Source: Lotus japonicus (Eukaryota > Streptophyta > Magnoliopsida > Fabales > Fabaceae). From it: a stretch of 64,000 nucleotides of DNA. A model generated the notes under the pieces. That model saw only the letters and a program-made list of their open reading frames with translations, made no database searches and was not told the DNA's origin. Every line of letters starts with the position of its first letter. Position 1 is the stretch's first letter. Below, one piece after another: positions 1 to 15,350 of the stretch. A program made the position numbers and the translations under genes. The stretch is taken from contig NC_080046.1 of assembly GCF_012489685.1 (NCBI RefSeq), positions 64,929,984 through 64,993,983 of the forward strand, given 5' to 3'.

Positions 1-1992
1 TTCCGGCGAGGAGTCATCAGGCGAGGCCTCATCCGGCATGGGAGGATCTGACGAGGATAGTATTCCTCCGCCTACTGTTGATGCTGATGTCCTGCCGCCA
101 GAACAGGGGGAGCAGGGGGCACAGGGTGGCGAGGAGGACCTGATCCAGAGGTTGCCGCCGTTTCCGGGGGGGCCTGTTGAGCTGTCGCTCCTCACCCATT
201 ATGCTGATCACAAGGCTCCCTGGGCGTGGCATGCACTCCTACGCACAGACGAGCAGTATGTGGACCGTCGACAGTTGAAGGTGGCCACAGCTGGGGGGAC
301 GGTTTGGAACCTTGCTTGTGATGGTGATTCAGACAGTCACAGGCGGGTTCGAGAGTTGATTGAGCAGACGGGTCTTCATCAGCTACCCTATTGCAGCTAC
401 CCGGTGATAGATGCAGGCCTTATTTTGGCCCTTGTGGAGCGATGGCATGAGGAGACTAGTAGCTTCCACATGCCGTTCGGGGAGATGACTATCACCTTGG
501 ACGACGTGTCGGCTCTTCTCCATCTCCCCATGGGGTCGAGGTTCTATACGCCTGGGAGGGGGGAGAGGGACGAGTGTGCAGCGCTCTGTGCTCAGTTGAT
601 GGGAGGATCTGTTGGTATTTATGAGGCTGAGTTTGATACGAATAGGTCCCGGACTATTCACTTTGGGGTCTTGCAGACCCGGTATGAGGCTGCGTTGGCG
701 GGTATGTCTTAATTATTATTGTATTGTCTTTGTATCTATTATTATTGTATTGTTATAAACTATTAACTTAATTCACTTCATTGTAGAGCACCGATATGAG
801 GACGCTGCGCGGATTTGGCTGGTGAACCAGCTAGGCGCTACGCTCTTTGCTAGCAAGAGCGGAGGCTACCATACGACCGTCTACTGGATAGGGATGTTGG
901 AGGATCTTGGTCGAGTGTGCGAGTACGCGTGGGGCGCGATTGCGCTCGCTACGCTATACGACCAGCTTAGTCGAGCGTCCAGGAGGGGGACGGCCCAGAT
1001 GGGAGGTTTTAGCTCGCTCCTGCTAGGATGGGTCTACGAGTACCTTTCTGACCGCGTCATTATCCGTAGGGCGGATCCGGAGTACTCGCAGGACCAGCCT
1101 AGGGCGCGGCGGTGGGCTATGTCCTGGGTCGGGCATGCAGGCCTTGATGAGAGGCGAGTCATGCTCGATGAGCTGACGGTGGATGACATTATATGGACCC
1201 CATTTGAGGACCATCGGGCTCATCGACCACGGGATCCGAGGGCCATGTATTCTGGCTACATCCGGTCGCCATTTGGCCGTGTTGTTCGACGGCATCTACC
1301 AGAGAGGGTTCTGCGCCAGTTTGGCTTCATACAGGATGTCCCTCGACACCCCTCTGAGATCCAGACGTCTGGGTCCCTTGCTGAGACCGCAGATGCTGCC
1401 TTTGCTGAGTTTGCGCCGCACCTCCGCCCTCAGGGGATCCCCGCTACATATCCGGGAGAGGTTGTGGAGGATTACATGAGGTGGTACAGCGCTGTGTCCC
1501 ATCGGTTCATCATCCCTGATGATAGGAGGGAGGAGTTCAGTGCGGTGGTAAGTTTGAATTTTATTTTCCATTCAATTGTGATTTTTTGTTCATGATATTT
1601 TATTTGTATCTAATGTATCTACATTATTTTTGCAGACTGTTATGCGTCGGGCTGTGGACTTGTTGGAGCAGTCACTCGAGGTGCCAGATGCTCCTGCAGA
1701 GGGCACGCATTCCCGATCCCTCACTAAGAGGGCGCTGGATCTTATTAGATCCAATGCCTTCATTGGTACCCAGGGGGTAGCCTTTGCTGCTGTCCGAGGA
1801 GCTAGAGCTGCAGGAGGCAGAGGTCGTGGAGACAGAGCGCGTGGAGGCAGAGGCCGTGGAGGCAGAGCCCGTGGAGAGGGTGCTCCTGCAGAGGGTGCTT
1901 CTGCAGAGGGTGCGCGTGGAGGCAGAGGCCGTGGAGGCAGAGCCCGTGGACCTAGAGGTCGTAGGGGGGTCGGTAGGGGTCGGGGCGAGTGA
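1..1992 (+). CDS. Plant mobile domain (MAIN-like / PP7 long-form-like) protein, 5' partial
   Basis: Three exons read in phase: 2-701, 787-1547 and 1636-1992 (GT-AG introns of 85 and 88 bases). The frame is open to the left edge, so ATG at 38 may not be the true start. The product has an acidic, proline-containing N-terminus, then the PMD fold typical of MAIN/MAIL1 and of proteins named 'serine/threonine-protein phosphatase 7 long form homolog': LLTHYADHKAPWAW early, the MTITLDDVSALLHLP motif, then repeated Trp/Arg-rich helices. The C-terminus, coded by the last exon, is an Arg-Gly rich tail (about 50 residues of RGGRGRGG-like repeats). Known PMD proteins occur both as host genes acting in silencing and as transposon cargo. 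Here it faces the HROB-like gene tail to tail, 243 bases apart. Function in the transposon is unknown. Confidence 0.8.
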
Positions 1993-2235
1993 TTGACTGT
2001 ATATTTGTATATTTTTTTTGTATTTTTATATTATGACATGTGACTCTTTGTATTAGGACTCTCTTTATATTAATCATGCTTTCTATTTTCACTCATTATA
2101 TGCCGACTCTTGTATTGAAAAAAACCCGTATAACTACACCGTAAATAATCAAAGGCAGGATAAGTAACATAAATATTTCATGGCAAACAGTTTAAAGGGT
2201 ACACGAAATTATTCAGAAGCAACACGAAAACAAAA

Positions 2236-2975
2236 TTAATCCTCAGTGATATCGATGAAGTCGTGGGGTCCGCTATCCTGTGGAAATACTTTGACTATGT
2301 TGGGCAACATTATATTCAGATAACGAACAGATTTACTCGGTGCAAACACAGCAACCTGCAAGTAAATTGCAAATTTAAAAGATTAATGCGTACTTGTTCA
2401 AAGGAAGCAAGATTAATGTTTAAGGTAATAGACCTTTTGGAGAACAAGAACAGATCCAACAGTTATGACATTCCTAAATTCCCCGTCAGTGAAGGCCTTG
2501 CGATGGACGCTAGCGTCAACGGTGCCCGTAGGGTCCTAAATCAATGCAATCGTGAGAGAAAATGAGACAAAAAATTTACGGTTAAAGAAGCTGGACAAAA
2601 GCGAGCAAATACCTTGAGGGTAACTTTGGCATCTCCGAAACCATTGGGAGTGCATGATTTAATAACAGCAACAACACTCTCTACTCTCTCAACATTCGTT
2701 GTGATTGTGCCCAGCGGAGTGGCAGATTCCACCAATTGCAGGGCTGTAAGCCAAGCATTTGAATTGAAATCAGGATCGGTTTCGGTTGATCTGTCTTCGA
2801 GCGCACGCCTCACAAATTCTTGGGTCGGAATGAGTAGTGTGTTAGGGTTGGATCTACGCCCATACATGGCAGCCTGGACGGCGCCAGCTGGCCCAGGAAT
2901 GAGAGGACGAGAGCTGCTAGAAGTGCTGCCTTGACGTTTGCAACGGCGGACTAATGCATCCCAGTCTTGTTCCAT
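2236..2975 (-). CDS. HROB-like (homologous recombination OB-fold) short protein
   Basis: Three minus-strand exons join in phase 0: 2975-2613, 2535-2434 and 2355-2236, giving 194 residues with a stop at the end. The start is MEQDWDALVRRC. Visible hallmarks are LIPGPAGAVQAAM near residues 25-37, then an OB-fold part with DPTGTVDASVH, ITVGSVLVLQK and YLNIMLPNIVKVF at the end. These resemble the C-terminal OB-fold region of HROB (MCM8IP), which in other eukaryotes recruits the MCM8-MCM9 helicase to recombination sites. The protein is shorter than full-length HROB, so it may be a captured C-terminal piece with its introns kept. It lies 479 bases downstream of the transposase stop on the same strand. 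No frame break is seen. Assignment rests on remembered family motifs, not on a search. Confidence 0.7.
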
Positions 2976-3166
2976 TGTATTTTTTTTATCTTCGAAAGCA
3001 AGACATGAAGAAAAGGATGAAGAAGAATAAAGAACCCATAGAGATTTATAGCAGAATGGTCAAAAGATTTATGGTGTTTGGTGGATAATACAAGTGTGGT
3101 TGGGGTTGGTTGGTGGTAGATAGTAATGTCAGGTTTCAAGTTCGTCATTTAGTGGATGAAAATGAC

Positions 3167-3286
3167 AAGACTCTGATGATGGGGTGGTTGGAAATGGCAG
3201 GACTCTGATGATGGGGTGGTTGGAAATGACAGGACTCTGATGATGGGGTGGTTGGAAATGACAGGACTCTGATGACAGAGTGGTTG
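3167..3286. repeat. 32-bp tandem repeat, about 3.75 copies
   Basis: Copies start at 3167, 3199, 3231 and 3263; the unit contains GGACTCTGATGATGGGG followed by TGGTTGGAAATGAC. The fourth copy diverges after GATGA. It lies upstream of the HROB-like start codon and downstream of the transposase stop. Confidence 0.95.
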
Positions 3287-3454
3287 TCTATGTTAATTAT
3301 CCCTGATGCTGATTCAAAATAATAAGGCCCATCAATATAACAATGACCATCAAATTAATATTATTAAAAGCAACAAATGAACATCATAAAGGCAAGGCCC
3401 ATCAGATTAATATTACAGAGCGTTTACAAATGAATATCACACAAAAGTGTGGTG

Positions 3455-6400
3455 TCAATCTGAGGTGATGTCTACATAGCTTTGGTGACTAAGAGGAACA
3501 CCAAAAGTAACAAGCCAAGCTTCGAATTCTGATGTGAATCTGCCTAAACGTGTACCATATGGGGCGCACCAGCTTACTGATGTAGGATCAACATACCGTT
3601 CCCACTGGAGAGCAATTGGCGGCATAGAATGTCCAGGAGTTAGATGGAGCTACATTATAGAGAATAACAATAAAATTAGATAACTTGCAAATACAACAAA
3701 TCAATTCACCAATTGGATATTAGTGTACTCAATCAAAAAATACCTGTACAAAGTGATTTATCACATGACCAACAGCTATAACATGATGTACATCCGGTGG
3801 ACCTTCTCCTCTTAGTGGAAGGTATGACCAACAACCCGTAGAGGAGATGGATATGAAAACCACTTGGAACCTGGTTGCTACAAGGTATCTCATCTCTGGC
3901 AGTTGCATCCATTTATCCTCGGTAGCCGGATCACCAGGAGGAAGAGTGAGTCGGGAATGTAAGGCATTAACCACATGTCTGGACCACATTTCATCATACA
4001 ACCCCCTGTGTCGTTCAAGTTCTTCTATCAACGCTGCCCTAACCCATGACCAACTTTCCTCACCTGATGGTAGTCCGAGTAATGCAGCAACGGCTCTATA
4101 GCCACAGTTACCATCATCCTCAACATTCTGAACTGTTTGTATATATGGGTGGAAAAAGGCTGGAAAATGACCCATGAAATAGCTTGTATCAGACTTCTTC
4201 ACACGCTTCTTCTTTGGTGGTTGTGAAACCTTCTTTGCCTCTCTAATCTCCCTATCAACATGTTCAAAACCTGAAAGATCACGAGTCAAGGATCCTATTG
4301 CTTTATTCTTGGGTGGTATTTTCTCATTCGCCTTAAGAGTGCGCTTGGACCTTATCTTAACCGCAGGAGTACAAAGTGAACTGCTTTCAGGACAATAGAT
4401 CGCTTGAAGCTTCCTCCTTACCATACTCTGCCCTCCAGTATCCAAAGAACTGAAATAATGTGTCAATGCCTCAACTTCTGGTTGCATATCTCCATGGTTC
4501 ATGCCGCAAATATGGTTGCTGGTAGTATCTGCAACAGGTTCAGGTACATGCTCCCAACTCAGTCTCTTCCAGAATGGATGAATTGACTCATATGGAATTC
4601 TTTCATAACCTGCAAGTTCACAAAAGTGTCACTTTCAATAACAAATAGAATTAATTGACAAGAGAGTGGTTGACCGGTGACCTGCAAGTTCACAACCGCA
4701 AGGTAGTCCATGAGTCTCTCTCAACAAGCAATCGCATCCGCCGTAGGACTTCATTCTTATATGTTCAGCGTCGATGAGCTGCAGGCATTTGTTTGACACA
4801 AATCCTCTAATATTTGTGTAAAATGGGAACATGAAAATGTGATCAATTCTGTGAATACTGCGCTCAAACGATGCTAATATTTCAGTATGTCGATTACATG
4901 TCAAACTATGCGACGCATCCCATGAAGTGGCTAGGTCACCCTTGCAATCCCGTAACATCTTCTTCAAACTGGCATGTGCACCCTCAGCCCTGCAAACAAC
5001 AAATAGATATCTTATTAACAACAATCTATCAAATGAACAAACAACGCATAAATTAAGCTCATGTAATTTTTTTACCTGTTACTTGTTGTTGTTCCAAAGT
5101 GCATCACATGATTTGTACATGCCTTGGCGAATTTTTCCTTGTGAACCAACCATGTAGTAGAACAATAGGAGGTAAAGTTGCTGTATTTTGCCTTGCACAT
5201 ATTAAACAATTGCATCCATTTCACTTCAAATTCTTCAACTGTTGCAGCATCCACCACCTCTGCCCACTTCATCATAACCAACTCAGCAAAATCATCTGTG
5301 CCAACATAGAGTTTGCACTTTGCCAAAACACACTTGTTGATGTGCCACAAGCATAATAAATGTGTAGTGTTAGGAAGGCTTTGCTTAGCAGCACTCAATA
5401 AGGCAAGATCCCTGTCAGTAACAATCACCTTAGGCAACATGGCTTGATCAGCTAATAGAGACTTCATACACTCCAGTGCCCAAACATAGTCATTTGTGCC
5501 CTCATTAACAATGTAGCAAAAGGCTATGGAGTAGGTCTTATCTGTGGAAGTCAGTCCAACAATCTCAAGCAAGGAAATTGCATATTTGTTTGTCTTGTAT
5601 GTGCAATCCATAATCACTACATACGGGAATGTGTTGAACAGTTTGATAGCATTTGGATGAGCCCAAAATACATCTCTAATGACTTCCGATCCAGGCTCAT
5701 GTCTTTCAAAGTGGACATACTTGTCACCGTCCAACTTCTTCAACAAGTGTTGCATTTCTGTCAATCCCCCGCGGAGGGATTTTCTTAACCTCTTGCAAAC
5801 ACCATAAATCTGAGATATGGTAGTCAAGTTTGAAGGATTGTTTTCCTTCAAAGTCAACAACATCTTTCTCGGTGGAACCCAACTCCTTGTCATTTTTTCC
5901 ACTTGCTCCTTCTCTCCGGGTTTTAGACGACCAACAAAATTGTGCCCAAGTAGTGACCTAGCTGGTTCATGGTTGTGTATACCTTCCATCACCTTTAGCC
6001 GCCAATCTCTATCTATGCCATTTTTCCTAGGTCGTCCTTTTAGTCTAAAAGGACAACCTGTCTTTTGTGATCTCGTCCCTTCAACAAGGTCAGGGTCTCT
6101 ATAAGGAACATATTTACCATGCTTCTCGCACCCCAACATGACATAAGCTTTTCTGCTTCCATTCCCACCATAATCTGACTTTGTGATCAACGTAACATAT
6201 CCATTTTCAATCGCAATTCCATGAACCCAATTGATAAGATCATCACGGGTAGGGAAAATCTGTTATAATAATAAGAATTGATTACAAGGGTGATCAAGAC
6301 ATAATAAGAATTGATATATTACACTCTCAAAACAATGCAAAAATATGTTCAAAGAATACCTGATCAGTTGCAAATAAATGCGAGACATCTATACTTATAC

Positions 6401-6512
6401 ACGGGGGCACAAATGCTGGTGGTGGCACCTCTGTAGTGGCCTCTTCAGGTTGACCATTGTGAAATCCAGCTTCAATCAATTGTGACTCACCAAAGAAAAA
6501 TGAATCTGTCAT
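3455..6512 (-). CDS. MULE transposase fused to OTU cysteine protease
   Basis: Five minus-strand exons stay in phase: 6512-6360, 6259-5076, 4989-4682, 4609-3744 and 3649-3455, about 901 residues. An in-frame ATG at 6551 could add 13. Order of domains: FAR1-type DNA-binding region (exon 2 start, with GCPFRLKGR and the HNHEP motif), MULE/MURA DDE core (VIMDCTYKTNKY and IVTDRDLALL hold the first two acidic residues, then the HLLCLWHINKC motif), a SWIM zinc finger (CDCLLRETHGLPCGC), a basic NLS-like PPKKKRVKK, and an OTU domain with VEDDGNCGYRA (catalytic Asp/Cys) and a late DVHHVIAVGHV (catalytic His). The transposase would bind the element's ends and cut; the OTU part is a predicted deubiquitinase. 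No stop or frame break is seen, so the gene may be active. Plant databases often label this family wrongly as PKS-NRPS-like. Confidence 0.88.
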
Positions 6513-6529
6513 CCCTGGAAGAGAATACG

Positions 6530-6660
6530 GAAAGTTACATTCCATACTCAATACGGAAAGCTACTTTCCATACTGAATACGGATTGTTACTTTCCATACT
6601 GAATACGGAAATTACCTTTCCATATTCAATACGGAAGATAACAATCCGTATTATATCACG
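6530..6660. repeat. Repeats of a TACGGAAA / TTTCCATAC motif upstream of the transposase
   Basis: Four to five near copies of an approximately 32-base unit with AATACGGAAA...CTTTCCATACT alternate direct and inverted halves. The same TACGGA/TCCGTA words reappear near 7010-7095 by the right end of the element and in the two 263-bp elements at 14.7-15.3 kb. They may be transposase binding sites; this is inference. Confidence 0.7.
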
Positions 6661-7140
6661 ACTCAGAATTCAAAAAACCATCCTTCTAACTACTTAAACT
6701 ACTTAATCTAACTACTTAAACTACTTAATCTAACTACTTCCACTACTTAATCCTACAAAATAACAACAAATAAACACATAGACTTACCTCTACTACAACA
6801 CTTGTTGATAGTGGTGGAGAGCTTGGGAAATGAAGGAGTGGATGGTGGTGGAGAGCTTGGGAATGAAAGTGAGGTAGGAGAGGGTGAGAGAGAGGGTGGT
6901 CTGGAGGCATTGAGGAGGTTCAGGGGGGCTGGTGAGGGGTTGGTGAAGGGGTTGGTGAGGGAGGAGTAATGGTGGAAAAAGAGGGAATCCTGTCAGAGTT
7001 AAATACGGAAAATACCTTTCCGTAGTCATCAAAACATAAAGTACCTTTCCGTATTAAGTTAAATTGAATACGGAAAGTACCTTTCCGTAGAACACTTTTG
7101 GGTTTAAAAAAAAAGGGTGGGGCGCGCAGCCCCATAGAGG

Positions 7141-7156
7141 CCCAAACCCAACTCCC
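7141..7156. repeat. Right terminus of the MULE
   Basis: CCCAAACCCAACTCCC, matching the outer ends of the two 263-bp elements (CCAAACCCAACTCCC). The base after it, 7157, begins TTCAACCAC, the candidate 9-bp target duplication to look for at the unseen left end. Confidence 0.7.
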
Positions 7157-7527
7157 TTCAACCACTCGGTTTTCGGTTGTTCTTTTCTCAAAAATCAAAA
7201 TCTTAAATTTTCCAAACATAACTCTGTTGGTTGAACACATTTATTATGAAAAATCACTGACTTCTATCAATCAATTGATTTACTGAGCTCACTCAAGTTT
7301 GGATATTTTTGGCAATGAAGTGGCGTTGAGACAGCAAAGCAACGTGAACAGAACAAACAGAAGAGAACAGAACATGCTTCTCTTCACTTCAAAATTTAAT
7401 GCTCTTTATCTCTCTCTCTCAGTCACACTTGCACTCTTCTCTAGTCATTTCTTTTTCTTTACCGCCATTATTATATGCTCTGCTATCCCACTTTCTCTCT
7501 CGAAGTTCAAACCTCTTGAACCTTTTC
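7157..7527 (+). promoter_or_regulatory. 5' flank and leader of the glycosyltransferase gene
   Basis: Only about 370 bases separate the MULE end from the chosen start codon. The last 150 bases are pyrimidine rich (TCTCTCTC, CTTTTTC) as in plant 5' leaders. No clear TATA box was settled on. Confidence 0.35.
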
Positions 7528-8865
7528 ATGTTTGAACCAATGGAGCTAGGAATCAAACCCTTGCTCTGCCTCCCATTTCTTCTCTTCCACCAACTTCAGC
7601 ACCTCAAAAAATCTATGTTTTCTCTTCTTTTCCACCTTCCAACATCTTTCTTTGCTCTTCTCCTTCTCTTCCTTTTAGCTTACAATGCTTTCACTGTCTT
7701 CTCCATTCATGTCCCCAAAACACACACCAAAACCAAATGGTCTTCTTCTTCTTCTTCTTCTTCTTCTTCTTCTTCTTCAAACCTCTCTTCTTCTGTGTTT
7801 TTTGCTCCAAAAGAAGAAGAAACTTTACCCCTCATGAAGAAACCCCTTCTGCAAATCTCCACTGAGAAATTCCAAATTCTCCCCACTCGCAGGGTGAGAA
7901 GAGTGAAGAAGCACAAGCGTGGCCTTAGAAGCTTGCGGTCTGAGAATCCTCCACTCCCACTTCCCCTGTTTCAGAACAGAGTAAAAGCATTCTTCTCTGG
8001 AAATTCCTCTGCTTCTTGTAAGCTCAGGTTCTTTATGACTTGGATTTCTCCCTTGAAAGCATTTGGTGAAAGAGAGATGCTATCTGTTGAGAGCTTGTTC
8101 AAGTCTCACCCACAAGCTTGTTTGGTTATAGTCTCCAATTCCATGGACTCTGACTCAGGAACTCAGATTCTGAGGCCTTTTGTGAGAAATGGGTTCAGAG
8201 TCATTGCAATTTCCCCTGATTTCAATTATCTATTCAAGGATACTCATGCTGAGACATGGTTCAATCGGTTGAGAGAAGGGTTTGTGAATCCAGGTGAAGT
8301 TTCTTTGGGCCAAAACCTCTCCAATTTGCTTAGGCTTGCACTTTTATACAAGTTTGGAGGCATATACATGGACTTAGATGTCCTGGTTTTGAAGAGCTTC
8401 TCTGAGCTAAGAAACACCATTGGAGCACAGGCTTCTGATGCTAGAACTGGGAAATGGAGCCGTTTGAACAATGGAGTGTTGATATTTGATAAGAAACACC
8501 CTTTGCTTTTCAAGTTCATTGAAGAATTTGCACTTACTTTTGATGGGAACAAGTGGGGCCACAATGGTCCTTACTTGATTTCTAGAGTGGTTTCAAGGGT
8601 GAGTGGAAGACCAGGGTTCAATTTCACTGTGCTTCCACCATCTGCATTTTATCCTGTGGACTGGAGAGGCATTAGGAGTCTGTTTCTTGGCCCTAAAGAT
8701 GAGGTCCATTCGAAGTGGTTGGCAAAGAAAATGGTGCAAATTCAAAGAGAAAGCTTTGCAGTGCACTTGTGGAACAGGCAGAGTAGGAACCTGGAGGTGG
8801 TGAAGGGAAGCATTGTTGATAGTATCATTTCAAGTTGTTGCATCTTCTGCAACACTTTGCTTTGA
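7528..8865 (+). CDS. Alpha-1,4-galactosyltransferase-like protein (DXD, Gb3 synthase family)
   Basis: A single exon of 445 residues from ATG 7528 (MFEPMELG). An in-frame ATG at 7399 lies in pyrimidine-rich leader-like sequence and is less likely. A hydrophobic stretch (FFALLLLFLLAYNAF) near residues 35-55 marks a type II Golgi membrane anchor. It is followed by a Ser run coded by a TCT repeat, then a lumenal catalytic region: KLRFFMTWISPL, LRLALLYKFGGIYMDLDVLVLKSF with the DXD metal/sugar-nucleotide motif at residues 282-284, LNNGVLIF, and the C-terminal alpha-1,4-glycosyltransferase domain ending in AVHLWNRQS. Plant members are annotated as lactosylceramide 4-alpha-galactosyltransferase-like, but plants lack that glycolipid, so the true acceptor is unknown. 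Frame is intact. Confidence 0.88.
   Translation: MFEPMELGIKPLLCLPFLLFHQLQHLKKSMFSLLFHLPTSFFALLLLFLLAYNAFTVFSIHVPKTHTKTKWSSSSSSSSSSSSSNLSSSVFFAPKEEETLPLMKKPLLQISTEKFQILPTRRVRRVKKHKRGLRSLRSENPPLPLPLFQNRVKAFFSGNSSASCKLRFFMTWISPLKAFGEREMLSVESLFKSHPQACLVIVSNSMDSDSGTQILRPFVRNGFRVIAISPDFNYLFKDTHAETWFNRLREGFVNPGEVSLGQNLSNLLRLALLYKFGGIYMDLDVLVLKSFSELRNTIGAQASDARTGKWSRLNNGVLIFDKKHPLLFKFIEEFALTFDGNKWGHNGPYLISRVVSRVSGRPGFNFTVLPPSAFYPVDWRGIRSLFLGPKDEVHSKWLAKKMVQIQRESFAVHLWNRQSRNLEVVKGSIVDSIISSCCIFCNTLL
7741..7778 (+). repeat. (TCT)n microsatellite in coding sequence
   Basis: Twelve or so TCT triplets code a serine run just after the membrane anchor of the glycosyltransferase; length variation would change the stem length without changing the frame. 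Confidence 0.9.
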
Positions 8866-12816: not shown

Positions 12817-15350
12817 TCATGACTTCTGCATCAGTCGCTCCACATCTCCCATTTCCACTTCATTTTCTTGCAATTCATCCTTGTCTTGGAAGAGCACTTC
12901 AATTTCCTCAAGAGTCTTTCCTTTTGTCTCAGGAACACAGTAATGAACAAAGGCAACCGCGCTACATGAAATAACACCAAAGACAAAGAAGGTTCCTGCT
13001 ACTGTGATTGCTTCAGAGACCGAGAGGAAGGTCATGGAGATCACACCACTACTCACCCTGCTTCCCACTGCTCCAAGAGCTGATGCTTGAGCTCTGAGCC
13101 TCAAAGGAAATATCTCAGATGTCAACACCCAGCATATGGGGCCAATTCCCACTGAGAAGGAAGCTACATTTCCACAAACTGCAATAATTGCCAATGTGAT
13201 CCCAATTTTTGCATGGCTCAGAAAAGCCAGAGAGAAGCTGAGGCTAAACAAACTAACTGTCATCCCAATCGTGCTCGCATAAAGCAAAGGCTTTCTCCCC
13301 AGTTTATCAATAAGCATTATAGCTACCAAGATGAAGAGAGTTTTGGTGAACCCAACAGCAACAGTTGCTGCGAGGACCTCAGACTTGCCAGTGATCCCAG
13401 CATTCTTGAAAATTGTGGGGCTGTAGTATACAGTGGTGTCTATGCCTGTTATCTGCTGGAAACACTGAATTCCACAACCAGTTATAAGCATCCTTCGAAC
13501 TGGAGGAGAAGGACAAAAGATTTCTCGCCAGACAGCTTTTGGTTCATAATTCTCAGTATTCGCTGAACCTGCAGCTACCTGAATTTCTTGCAACTTTTCT
13601 TCGGCCTCCTTCTCGCTTGCATTTATCTTTAACAACACTAGTCTAGCTTCTTCAATCCTATTCTGCACCACAAGCCATCTTGGGGATTCAGGTATGAAAA
13701 AGAGTGCAACAGCAATAACAACTGAAGGAAGAAGTCCCACACCAAGCATTATCCTCCAACTTATATGAGCTGGAAGACCCGAAAATGCATAGTTTGATAT
13801 GTAACCGAGAAGGATTCCCAAGTTTATACATATCTCAGGGAAAGAAGTAAGAGATCCCCTAGCAATGGCAGGAGAAATTTCAGCGATATACACAGGTGCG
13901 ATCATGACACCGAAACCTATACCTACCCCAGCCAAGAGTCTGCCTATCATCAACACTTTGAAGGATGGAGCAAGAGCCATAACAGCCCCACCTGTTTGGA
14001 AGATAATCGCTGCCAAACCAATTGTCCATTTTCTGCCGATAGCATCGGATGTCTTTCCACCTGCTAAACTGCCCAACAGCGATATTATGCTCAAAATTCC
14101 AACAAGTACCTCCACCTGAACATCTGTTATCTTCAAATCATCCTGAATGAATAAAACTGCTCCACTCATAACACCTATATCTGCAAAATTATAAGCAAAG
14201 ATGGCTATAGCCTGAGTTTCGATCCTCATTAATAGCATAAATAAACACGCGCGAGCAATGTTTAAGTAGTAAATGTCAAAATAAATCAATACAACATGGT
14301 TGAATACAACTAGAGGATTCTGTGTTCAATTGTTAGTAAGTGTCTAACAATAGCATTTCCTGCACGTTTGGAAATCTTTCTACAGGTGATTCTGAAGTCT
14401 GAGTCAATTATGAGAAGAAGCTTTTATGAGTAATTTCTAGGTTTCATAATTGATTCTGGGGAAATAAAAACTGATCCAAACATGCTTATACGCAAAACAC
14501 ATATATGATATTTGGGATTTTATGAGCAGATCAAAATTTAAGCACAAAATTAGGAAAAGATAAGATAGAGAAATAGAATTACCTACCATAGCCGAGAAGC
14601 ACGGAATTGAGAGAAGCAAAGATGGCACATGCAATGATATATTTCTTTGTATCATAATTGCTAGTTTGCAAACCACCTTCATCTTCTTCTTCAGCTTCAG
14701 TGAGATCAGAGGTCATTCTGATGTACTTGGTTTTGGGGAGTTGGGTTTGGCACCCCACCTATGGGGCTTGGCACCCCACTTTATCAAATACGGAATTTAA
14801 AGTTCCGTATTCTCCATATTGAATACGGAACTTAAAATTCCGTACTGTATTTAAGCATGCGTGTCACATTTTCAACCACTCATTATATACTAAAACAGAT
14901 ACGAAATTTTATTTTCCGTATTGATACGGAAATTTAAATTCCGTATCTATTTTAGTGGGGTGCAAAGCCTAAGGGGTGGGGCTCCAAACCCAACTCCCTT
15001 GGTTTTGGTTCCCAATGGAATCTCAGATATAACATCTCCATTGACATTCCCATTTCCTGGGAATTGAGTTTGGTGCCCCACCCCTTAGGCTTTGCACCCC
15101 ACTTTATTAAATACGGAATTTAAAGTTCCGTATCAATACGGAAAATAAAATTCCGTATCTGTTTTAGTATATAATGAGTGGTTGAAAATGTGACACGCAT
15201 GCTTAAATACAGTACGGAATTTTAAGTTCCGTATTCAATAGGGAGAATACGTAATTTTAAATTCCGTATTTGATAAAGTGGGGTGCCAAGCCCCATAGGT
15301 GGGGTGCCAAACCCAACTCCCCCATTTCCTTGAACACCAACCAACCCCAT
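12817..15350 (-). CDS. Polyol/monosaccharide transporter (MFS), first exon split by two transposons
   Basis: Exon 2 is 14180-12817; exon 1 ends at 14587 and joins in phase (...LLGY + DIGVMSGAV). It is a 12-helix H+-coupled sugar/polyol carrier of the plasma membrane: GRKWTIG, PESPRWLV after helix 6, QQITGID in helix 7, GRKPLL, and PETKGKTLEEIE at the C-terminus. Reading from ATG 14716 (MTSDLTEAEEEDEGG) gives 497 residues. Without the two inserted 263-bp elements and their duplicated 9 bases, the frame continues upstream to ATG 15350 (MGLVGVQGNG...), adding 30 residues for 527, the usual length for polyol transporters. So the elements interrupt the cytosolic N-terminal coding segment. Expression now would need the internal ATG (20 bases from one element) or removal of the inserts by splicing. 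Transport core is intact. Confidence 0.85.
14363..14486. mobile_element. Small MITE-like repeat, copy B, in transporter intron 1
   Basis: Starts CACGTTTGGAAATC and ends ATCCAAACATGC, with GTCTGAGTCAATTATGAG and CATAATTGATTCTGG inside. Same family as 12662-12779, 57124-57247 and 57742-57868. Confidence 0.55.
14736..14998. mobile_element. 263-bp MULE-derived MITE, copy 1, inside transporter exon 1
   Basis: Begins GGGAGTTGGGTTTGGC and ends CCAAACCCAACTCCC. It is flanked by the 9-base direct duplication TTGGTTTTG (14727-14735 and 14999-15007), the Mutator hallmark. The interior holds several palindromic AATACGGAAnTT/AAnTTCCGTATT motifs. No coding capacity. Confidence 0.92.
15059..15321. mobile_element. 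263-bp MULE-derived MITE, copy 2, inverted relative to copy 1
   Basis: Same length and family as 14736-14998 but in the opposite orientation. It begins GGGAATTGAGTTTGG, ends CCAAACCCAACTCCC, and is flanked by the 9-base duplication CCATTTCCT (15050-15058 and 15322-15330). Its separate target duplication shows an independent insertion. Confidence 0.92.

Follow-up and report, generated by a model that had tools for sequence, protein, structure and literature searches.

A Mutator-like transposon of Lotus japonicus enclosing genes for a plant mobile domain protein, an HROB-like protein and a predicted transposase-OTU fusion

Introduction

Several kinds of transposon carry more than a transposase. 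Mutator-like elements (MULEs) with a plant mobile domain (PMD) are described from grasses and Amborella, with the suggestion that the PMD protein counters silencing (Ikeda et al. 2017, PMC5418596); KAONASHI/ULP1-MULEs combine a ubiquitin/SUMO-related cysteine protease with additional genes (PMC13317346, PMC2528002); and Ginger1 transposons bear OTU or Ulp1 domains, a C-terminal OTU domain of the transposase being suggested there to aid DNA repair (PMC2836005). Host-derived coding sequence inside MULE ends is a feature of Pack-MULEs (mentioned in PMC8616336, PMC2528002). Here we describe a locus of Lotus japonicus that bears comparison with each of these, at the left edge of a 64,000-bp stretch of NC_080046.1 (positions 64,929,984 to 64,993,983; ‘the window’ throughout, which also supplies our coordinates). 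The locus is almost certainly a single MULE, enclosing genes for a PMD protein, an HROB-like protein and a transposase-OTU fusion.

Cut-and-paste elements gain copies only when the vacated site is filled in again from the sister or when they move during replication, which raises the question of how far transposons steer that choice. A Drosophila P-element assay makes use of the fact that sister-templated synthesis repairs the gaps left by excision (PMC8951532). Long-tract gene conversion is the process that depends most on human HROB (also MCM8IP or C17orf53), which binds RPA via acidic N-terminal motifs and MCM8-9 via residues 396-413 (PMC7290032); it touches MCM9 through its OB fold, and stimulation of the helicase requires this fold (PMC11055865).

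Results

Boundaries and gene content

The right-hand 7,156 bp of the element (1..7156) lie in the window and end in a terminal inverted repeat (7114..7156, minus strand, defined by comparison with the left end) that begins GGGAGTTGGGTTTGG and is followed by a 9-bp target-site duplication, TTCAACCAC, at 7157..7165. An initial annotation of this DNA had predicted a left terminus with a matching duplication beyond the window, and both were found there: 1,165 bp to the left, the order is TTCAACCAC then GGGAGTTGGGTTTGG, the duplication is exact, and the whole element measures 8,321 bp (C6:64928819-64937139). The two terminal repeats are identical over their first 16 bases (at least 15) and match imperfectly over about 40. 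A MULE-type transposase (PF10551 cut-off passed), terminal inverted repeats and a 9-bp duplication are all present. A scan of 1-3460 for a nearer left terminus, which covers the interval 3290-3455 where a terminus would have refuted the initial annotation, returned a best local match score of 20 against a shuffle 95% point of 22, with nothing above shuffles.

The right terminus had also been claimed to be common to short MULE-type elements, and here too the comparison bears this out. An 18-base pattern of the terminus at 7156 recurs at three other places in the window, with two mismatches each (shuffle mean 0.01), all of them inside two 263-bp elements at 14736-14998 and 15059-15321, which are likely to be non-autonomous relatives of the large MULE. 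These sit side by side in opposite orientation, each between two identical copies of a 9-bp sequence (TTGGTTTTG and CCATTTCCT). Two subterminal palindromes of the form TACGGAA-N7-TTCCGTA (at 7004 and 7069; 7004..7089) are found in the large element, and the same unit occurs six times in the two short ones.

As the initial annotation had stated, all three spliced genes are free of stops and frameshifts in the window copy. The three-gene MULE is apparently autonomous. The PMD gene lies on the plus strand in three exons: the first starts at window position -304 and reaches the window as 1..701, the second spans 787..1547, and the third (1636..1992) runs through the stop and encodes an arginine/glycine-rich tail. 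With the left flank included, the full protein has 707 aa; its domain matches the Pfam PMD family (PF10536, 3.3e-50). A second tight PMD group of seven proteins exists in Lotus (P0119, P0124, P0128, P0132, P0133, P0135 and P0153), far from that of the element and perhaps belonging to another transposon family.

On the minus strand lies the HROB-like gene, whose three exons (2613..2975, 2434..2535 and 2236..2355, the last ending ..DFIDITED) encode a protein of 194 aa with the HROB OB domain (PF15072, 1.1e-28). The transposase-OTU gene shares this strand and encodes 901 aa in five exons with GT-AG introns: exon 1 (6360..6512); exon 2, with the MULE transposase domain (5076..6259; PF10551, 4.2e-23); exon 3 (4682..4989), whose C/H residues resemble a SWIM zinc finger; exon 4, with an OTU-like domain containing DDGNCGYRA (3744..4609); and exon 5, ending ..SYVDITSD (3455..3649). 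The OTU assignment comes from the fold of the same region in a relative, P0162, as the window transposase has no match to an OTU family in Pfam at E up to 1; none of the three window proteins matches the Ulp1 domain in Pfam. In the P0162 model (28 of the 120 listed relatives), mean pLDDT (predicted local distance difference test) is 66.5 for the whole protein, with blocks of 80-97 over the OTU stretch (~431-630), and OTU proteases head its matches to solved structures (best E 4.5e-05). In the window protein, DDGNCGYRA falls at residue 713 and GHVINHFV at 829, corresponding to a catalytic D-G-x-C and a downstream H. We therefore regard the C-terminal region as having, on the strength of this model, a predicted OTU-type protease fold. 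Many database entries related to this protein bear the name ‘PKS-NRPS hybrid synthetase’ or ‘FAR1-RELATED SEQUENCE’, apparently misleading labels for transposon proteins. In database searches with the window proteins, the top relatives come from L. japonicus.

Copies elsewhere in the genome

The right-end stretch (6700-7156) has at least 40 near-full-length genomic matches at 95-100% identity, the window copy included (best 40 of 250 candidates), and near-identity across so many sites points to movement in the recent past. We extracted 19 of the 39 others for analysis of ends and genes. The 9-bp duplication is exact in 16 of these and has one mismatch in L030; L019 and L032 lack a matching left end. 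Seven of the copies measure 8,193-8,302 bp, and the other ten with both ends 1.6-6.9 kb. The expectation that the three genes would be found together between matching ends elsewhere was borne out by the other full-size copies: all 11 exons are present at full coverage in five of the 19 (L026-L029 and L031), and four more (L019, L020, L025 and L032) carry all three genes but with incomplete coverage of some exons. Judged from BLAST exon matches, not transcripts, the HROB-like gene can be joined from its three exons at nine loci and is open in all nine, the PMD gene is open in three of ten joinable copies and the transposase gene in four of seven; a single copy, L026, has all three open.

Across the genome, among the matches listed, 82 of 136 OTU-exon hits (two of these rows being pieces of one place) are followed 693-1,058 bp downstream (median 767) by HROB exon 1 in the same orientation. 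Conversely, 82 of the 150 HROB hits can be paired with an OTU exon, and no pair within 4 kb is arranged in any other way; co-location of the PMD gene was counted in the individually extracted loci. Database gene models agree with this linkage: LOC130736031 (transposase) lies beside LOC130736032 (HROB), and P0039 is a chimeric model that joins transposase exon 1 to HROB exons 2-3.

Diverged subfamilies and selection

A genome search with the HROB-like protein (best 150 of 531 candidates) gave hits in identity bands of ~97-100, 88-93, 72-80 and 67-68%, with few outside them. From the three lower bands we sampled L037 (88-93%), L038 and L039 (72-80%) and L040 (67-68%). At all four, the PMD, HROB and transposase genes occur in the same order and orientation, although some are partial (the last 24 residues of the transposase in L037; PMD residues 526-673 in L038). 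L039, which is 8,370 bp long and flanked by the duplication GGAAACAAG, is complete; for L037, L038 and L040 we found no convincing pair of ends bordered by a matching duplication.

Compared with the window copy, the ratio of non-synonymous to synonymous substitution rates (dN/dS) of the HROB-like gene is 0.47 (95% bounds 0.30-0.69) in L037, 0.46 (0.29-0.76) in L038, 0.40 (0.25-0.61) in L039 and 0.29 (0.18-0.45) in L040, over synonymous divergence (dS) from 0.18 to 0.77. The corresponding ratios for PMD are 0.59, 0.67 (upper bound 1.02), 0.32 and 0.29, and those for the transposase 0.48, 0.49 and 0.33 in L038, L039 and L040. L038 has one in-frame stop in HROB and one in the transposase, and the aligned HROB stretches of the other three loci have none. 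Within a locus, synonymous divergence is roughly alike for the three genes (HROB/PMD/transposase dS in L038, 0.32/0.25/0.40; L039, 0.35/0.66/0.39; L040, 0.77/1.27/0.92), PMD being the outlier in L039 and L040. The three genes thus mostly differ between subfamilies as they would under purifying selection; for HROB the signal of selection lies between subfamilies, not among young copies.

Structure and origin of the HROB-like gene

In a tree built from 69 of 99 database hits and the window sequence, 16 Lotus rows form one clade (100/100) within legumes, next to HROB of Sesbania, although this last joining is weak (84/24). A single Lotus clade within legume HROB is most simply explained by one capture; to judge by their size and organization, the other legume proteins are probably host genes. 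Multi-copy HROB-like genes are also seen elsewhere in the tree. One group comprises Tanacetum (P0042-P0044, P0049, P0053, P0082, P0073, P0075, P0088 and P0096) and Artemisia (P0034, P0036, P0057 and P0076) proteins. Six of these carry the database name ‘transposase, MuDR, MULE transposase domain protein’, and an additional N-terminal domain, which appears to resemble the N-terminus of mudrA transposases, is common to four others. As it occurs in Tanacetum, this domain received no Pfam name, and its best PDB hits, to repeat proteins, contain no significantly matched segment. The group may be an independent capture. A long-branched multi-copy group in Vigna angularis (P0050, P0055, P0095 and P0097) retains an acidic N-terminal stretch. 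No relatives were confirmed in viral contigs.

The element protein retains the OB core and PGPAG segment, both near those of host HROB. A model of a relative, P0001 (24 rows), gives an OB fold, with RPA, Teb1, TPP1, HIN-200 domains and lysyl-tRNA synthetases among its best solved matches; no solved structure of an HROB relative was found by single-sequence search, and no credible one by profile. Across seven Lotus sequences, changes avoid the sites conserved in 21 selected host-type HROB proteins (permutation p 0.0002).

Both ends of the protein differ from host forms. Judged by pattern only, the acidic N-terminal motif is absent from all 14 Lotus sequences and present in 27 of 64 other hits with a PGPA core (the remaining 37 also lack it). 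Before the PGP core, acidic minus basic residues come to -2 in the window protein and -3 and -1 in two Lotus relatives, against +3 to +6 in nine host-type sequences. At the C-terminus a WTDEQ-type pattern is found in none of the 14 Lotus proteins, compared with 22 of 85 others; the Lotus proteins have an 8-residue tail instead. The terminal pattern [VITS][DN][IL]xx[DE] describes this tail in all but one of the 15 Lotus HROB hits (the exception, P0015, is a shortened model), and is absent from the remaining 84 HROB hits, among them two Lotus-like fragments, P0004 and P0017, and from 56 PMD hits. Of 120 transposase hits, a set with many truncated gene models, 17 have it. All four diverged loci, L037-L040, have both the HROB and the transposase tail. 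A reading of the tail as a SUMO-interaction motif was dropped, as it misfits some copies (FTNITED).

Surroundings of the insertion

Eleven bases at the insertion site (TTCAACCACTC, 7157-7167) recur inside the short elements (interior of 14736-14998), probably by chance. An open frame, stop-to-stop, at 7348-8865 starts ~190 bp to the right, which places the element just upstream of an apparent host gene.

Discussion

We tentatively favour a model in which the HROB-like protein recruits MCM8-9 to excision gaps and steers their repair towards long-tract copying from the sister. The transposase would cut and insert the element, its OTU domain would take ubiquitin off the transposase itself or off proteins at the element ends, and the PMD protein would interfere with PMD-dependent silencing. 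In its shortened form, the HROB-like protein would keep the segments by which human HROB engages MCM8-9, namely the OB fold and, judging from position, the stretch ahead of it, and the missing acidic N-terminus may correspond to RPA binding. By bringing MCM8-9 to the gap left by excision it would favour long-tract synthesis from the sister chromatid, such that a complete element is restored at the donor site and the number of copies grows. The short tail common to the HROB-like protein and the transposase may dock both onto one partner. With the initial annotation, we infer from sequence ‘integration, host evasion and repair’ as the functions of the three genes.

Several observations weigh against this model. 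In the middle tier of OTU hits (86-95% identity), 15 of 49 have HROB alongside, among the matches listed. Two of those with no listed HROB, L041 and L042, contain the PMD and transposase-OTU genes and no HROB match; alignment and the junction in L041 place the missing stretch, a clean deletion that takes out the whole HROB gene, at 2173..3321. L041 is cut at its right end and L042 is a complete element of 7,125 bp with an exact 9-bp duplication, TTATTCCAT, and 99.7% identity to L041. The PMD and HROB-like genes, whose absence from other transposase copies would have told against the initial annotation, are common there, with this one subfamily (two loci) as the exception on the side of HROB; HROB is common but not universal in the family. 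Since it is present in more distant loci, its absence from L041 and L042 looks like one loss, followed by movement either without HROB or with HROB from relatives; HROB may be helpful yet unneeded, or supplied in trans. Young copies, moreover, show no selection on HROB. Measured against the window copy alone, dN/dS is 0.71 for PMD, 2.59 for HROB (3 synonymous and 24 non-synonymous changes, the window's own changes being counted again in every pair) and 0.27 for the transposase. Private changes relative to the consensus give 0.94, 0.97 (9 non-synonymous, 3 synonymous) and 0.51, respectively, those in HROB looking neutral, and changes common to at least two copies give 0.35 for PMD and 0.34 for the transposase, HROB having one such change. 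Finally, the DNA of the HROB and transposase gene ends has no significant similarity, and the likeness of their tails could therefore be convergent.

The same near-neutral private changes in PMD and HROB, and the movement of a subfamily without HROB, would be expected if both genes were passengers of the Pack-MULE kind, host genes carried without benefit and open merely through the youth of the copies; MULEs often carry fragments of host genes (PMC13317346, PMC2528002). We consider this improbable, given the constraint on HROB between subfamilies, aligned stretches that are free of stops in three of four loci, and changes that fall where host HROB also varies. That the three genes are unrelated neighbours, with the MULE owning the transposase only, might have been argued from the higher G+C of the PMD stretch (0.52-0.59 per 500 bp in 1-2000, 0.34-0.48 in 2001-7000) and from the fact that the window alone holds no left end. 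We reject this: the left end and its duplication enclose all three genes, full-size copies elsewhere have the same content, the OTU-HROB arrangement is fixed, and the probability left to it is practically nil.

Two further alternatives concern what the HROB-like protein does. It could be an inhibitor, a shortened form lacking the RPA-binding part, which would sit on MCM8-9 and block host recombination, diverting excision sites to end joining or dampening repair-linked silencing. The absence of both the acidic N-terminus and the host C-terminus would suit such a dominant-negative form, but would suit a minimal activator equally, and a block on sister-chromatid repair would presumably cost the element a main route to extra copies; this is unlikely, and recruitment of MCM8-9 is favoured over it by the retention of the OB fold and PGPAG segment with loss of the acidic part. 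Alternatively, the protein may have left DNA repair and act on how the element replicates or is silenced, perhaps by joining the OTU-transposase in an integration complex through their common type of C-terminal tail, which in the models of P0001 and P0162 is of low confidence and probably a flexible end in both. We think this unlikely too, as the closeness of the OB core and PGPAG segment to host HROB speaks for continued contact with the former partner.

Returning to recruitment of MCM8-9, a stronger form of the model is possible, if doubtful: that the transposon family maintains under selection a recombination factor of its own, stripped of the host's regulatory ends and given a transposase-type tail, which directs excision-gap repair so that the element replicates, the HROB-less subfamily thereby depending on the HROB of its relatives. 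The subfamilies that keep the three-gene set make such recruitment of host repair by a transposon testable, and HROB-bearing and HROB-less versions of one family in one genome provide a natural pair for asking about repair steering. With ubiquitin-protease-like and silencing-linked domains in the same element, three host pathways become testable in one system.

In relation to known systems, the element protein shares with host HROB/MCM8IP the PF15072 OB domain, the PGPAG segment and an intron-bearing gene, and differs in its length of 194 aa, in the absence (by pattern) of the acidic N-terminal motif and of the WTDEQ-type motif, and in its 8-residue tail. Searches of titles and abstracts in the open-licence literature found no link between HROB, or its older names, and transposons, an earlier mention elsewhere being possible; no report of a plant mobile domain, a MULE and OTU together was found in the same literature. 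In the MULEs of grasses and Amborella the PMD is fused to the transposase, whereas that of Lotus, a legume, is a separate three-exon gene on the strand opposite to the transposase, accompanied by HROB and OTU (PMC5418596). KAONASHI/ULP1-MULEs have ULP1 instead of OTU, those of Arabidopsis lack terminal inverted repeats, and the passages compared contain no HROB or PMD (PMC13317346, PMC2528002); Ginger1, described from animals, belongs to a different transposase superfamily (PMC2836005). From Pack-MULEs the Lotus element differs in a captured gene with full exons, in purifying selection between subfamilies and in the transposase alongside. Pack-MULEs are typically non-autonomous and carry gene fragments, and an open transposase gene of its own sets the Lotus element apart from them.

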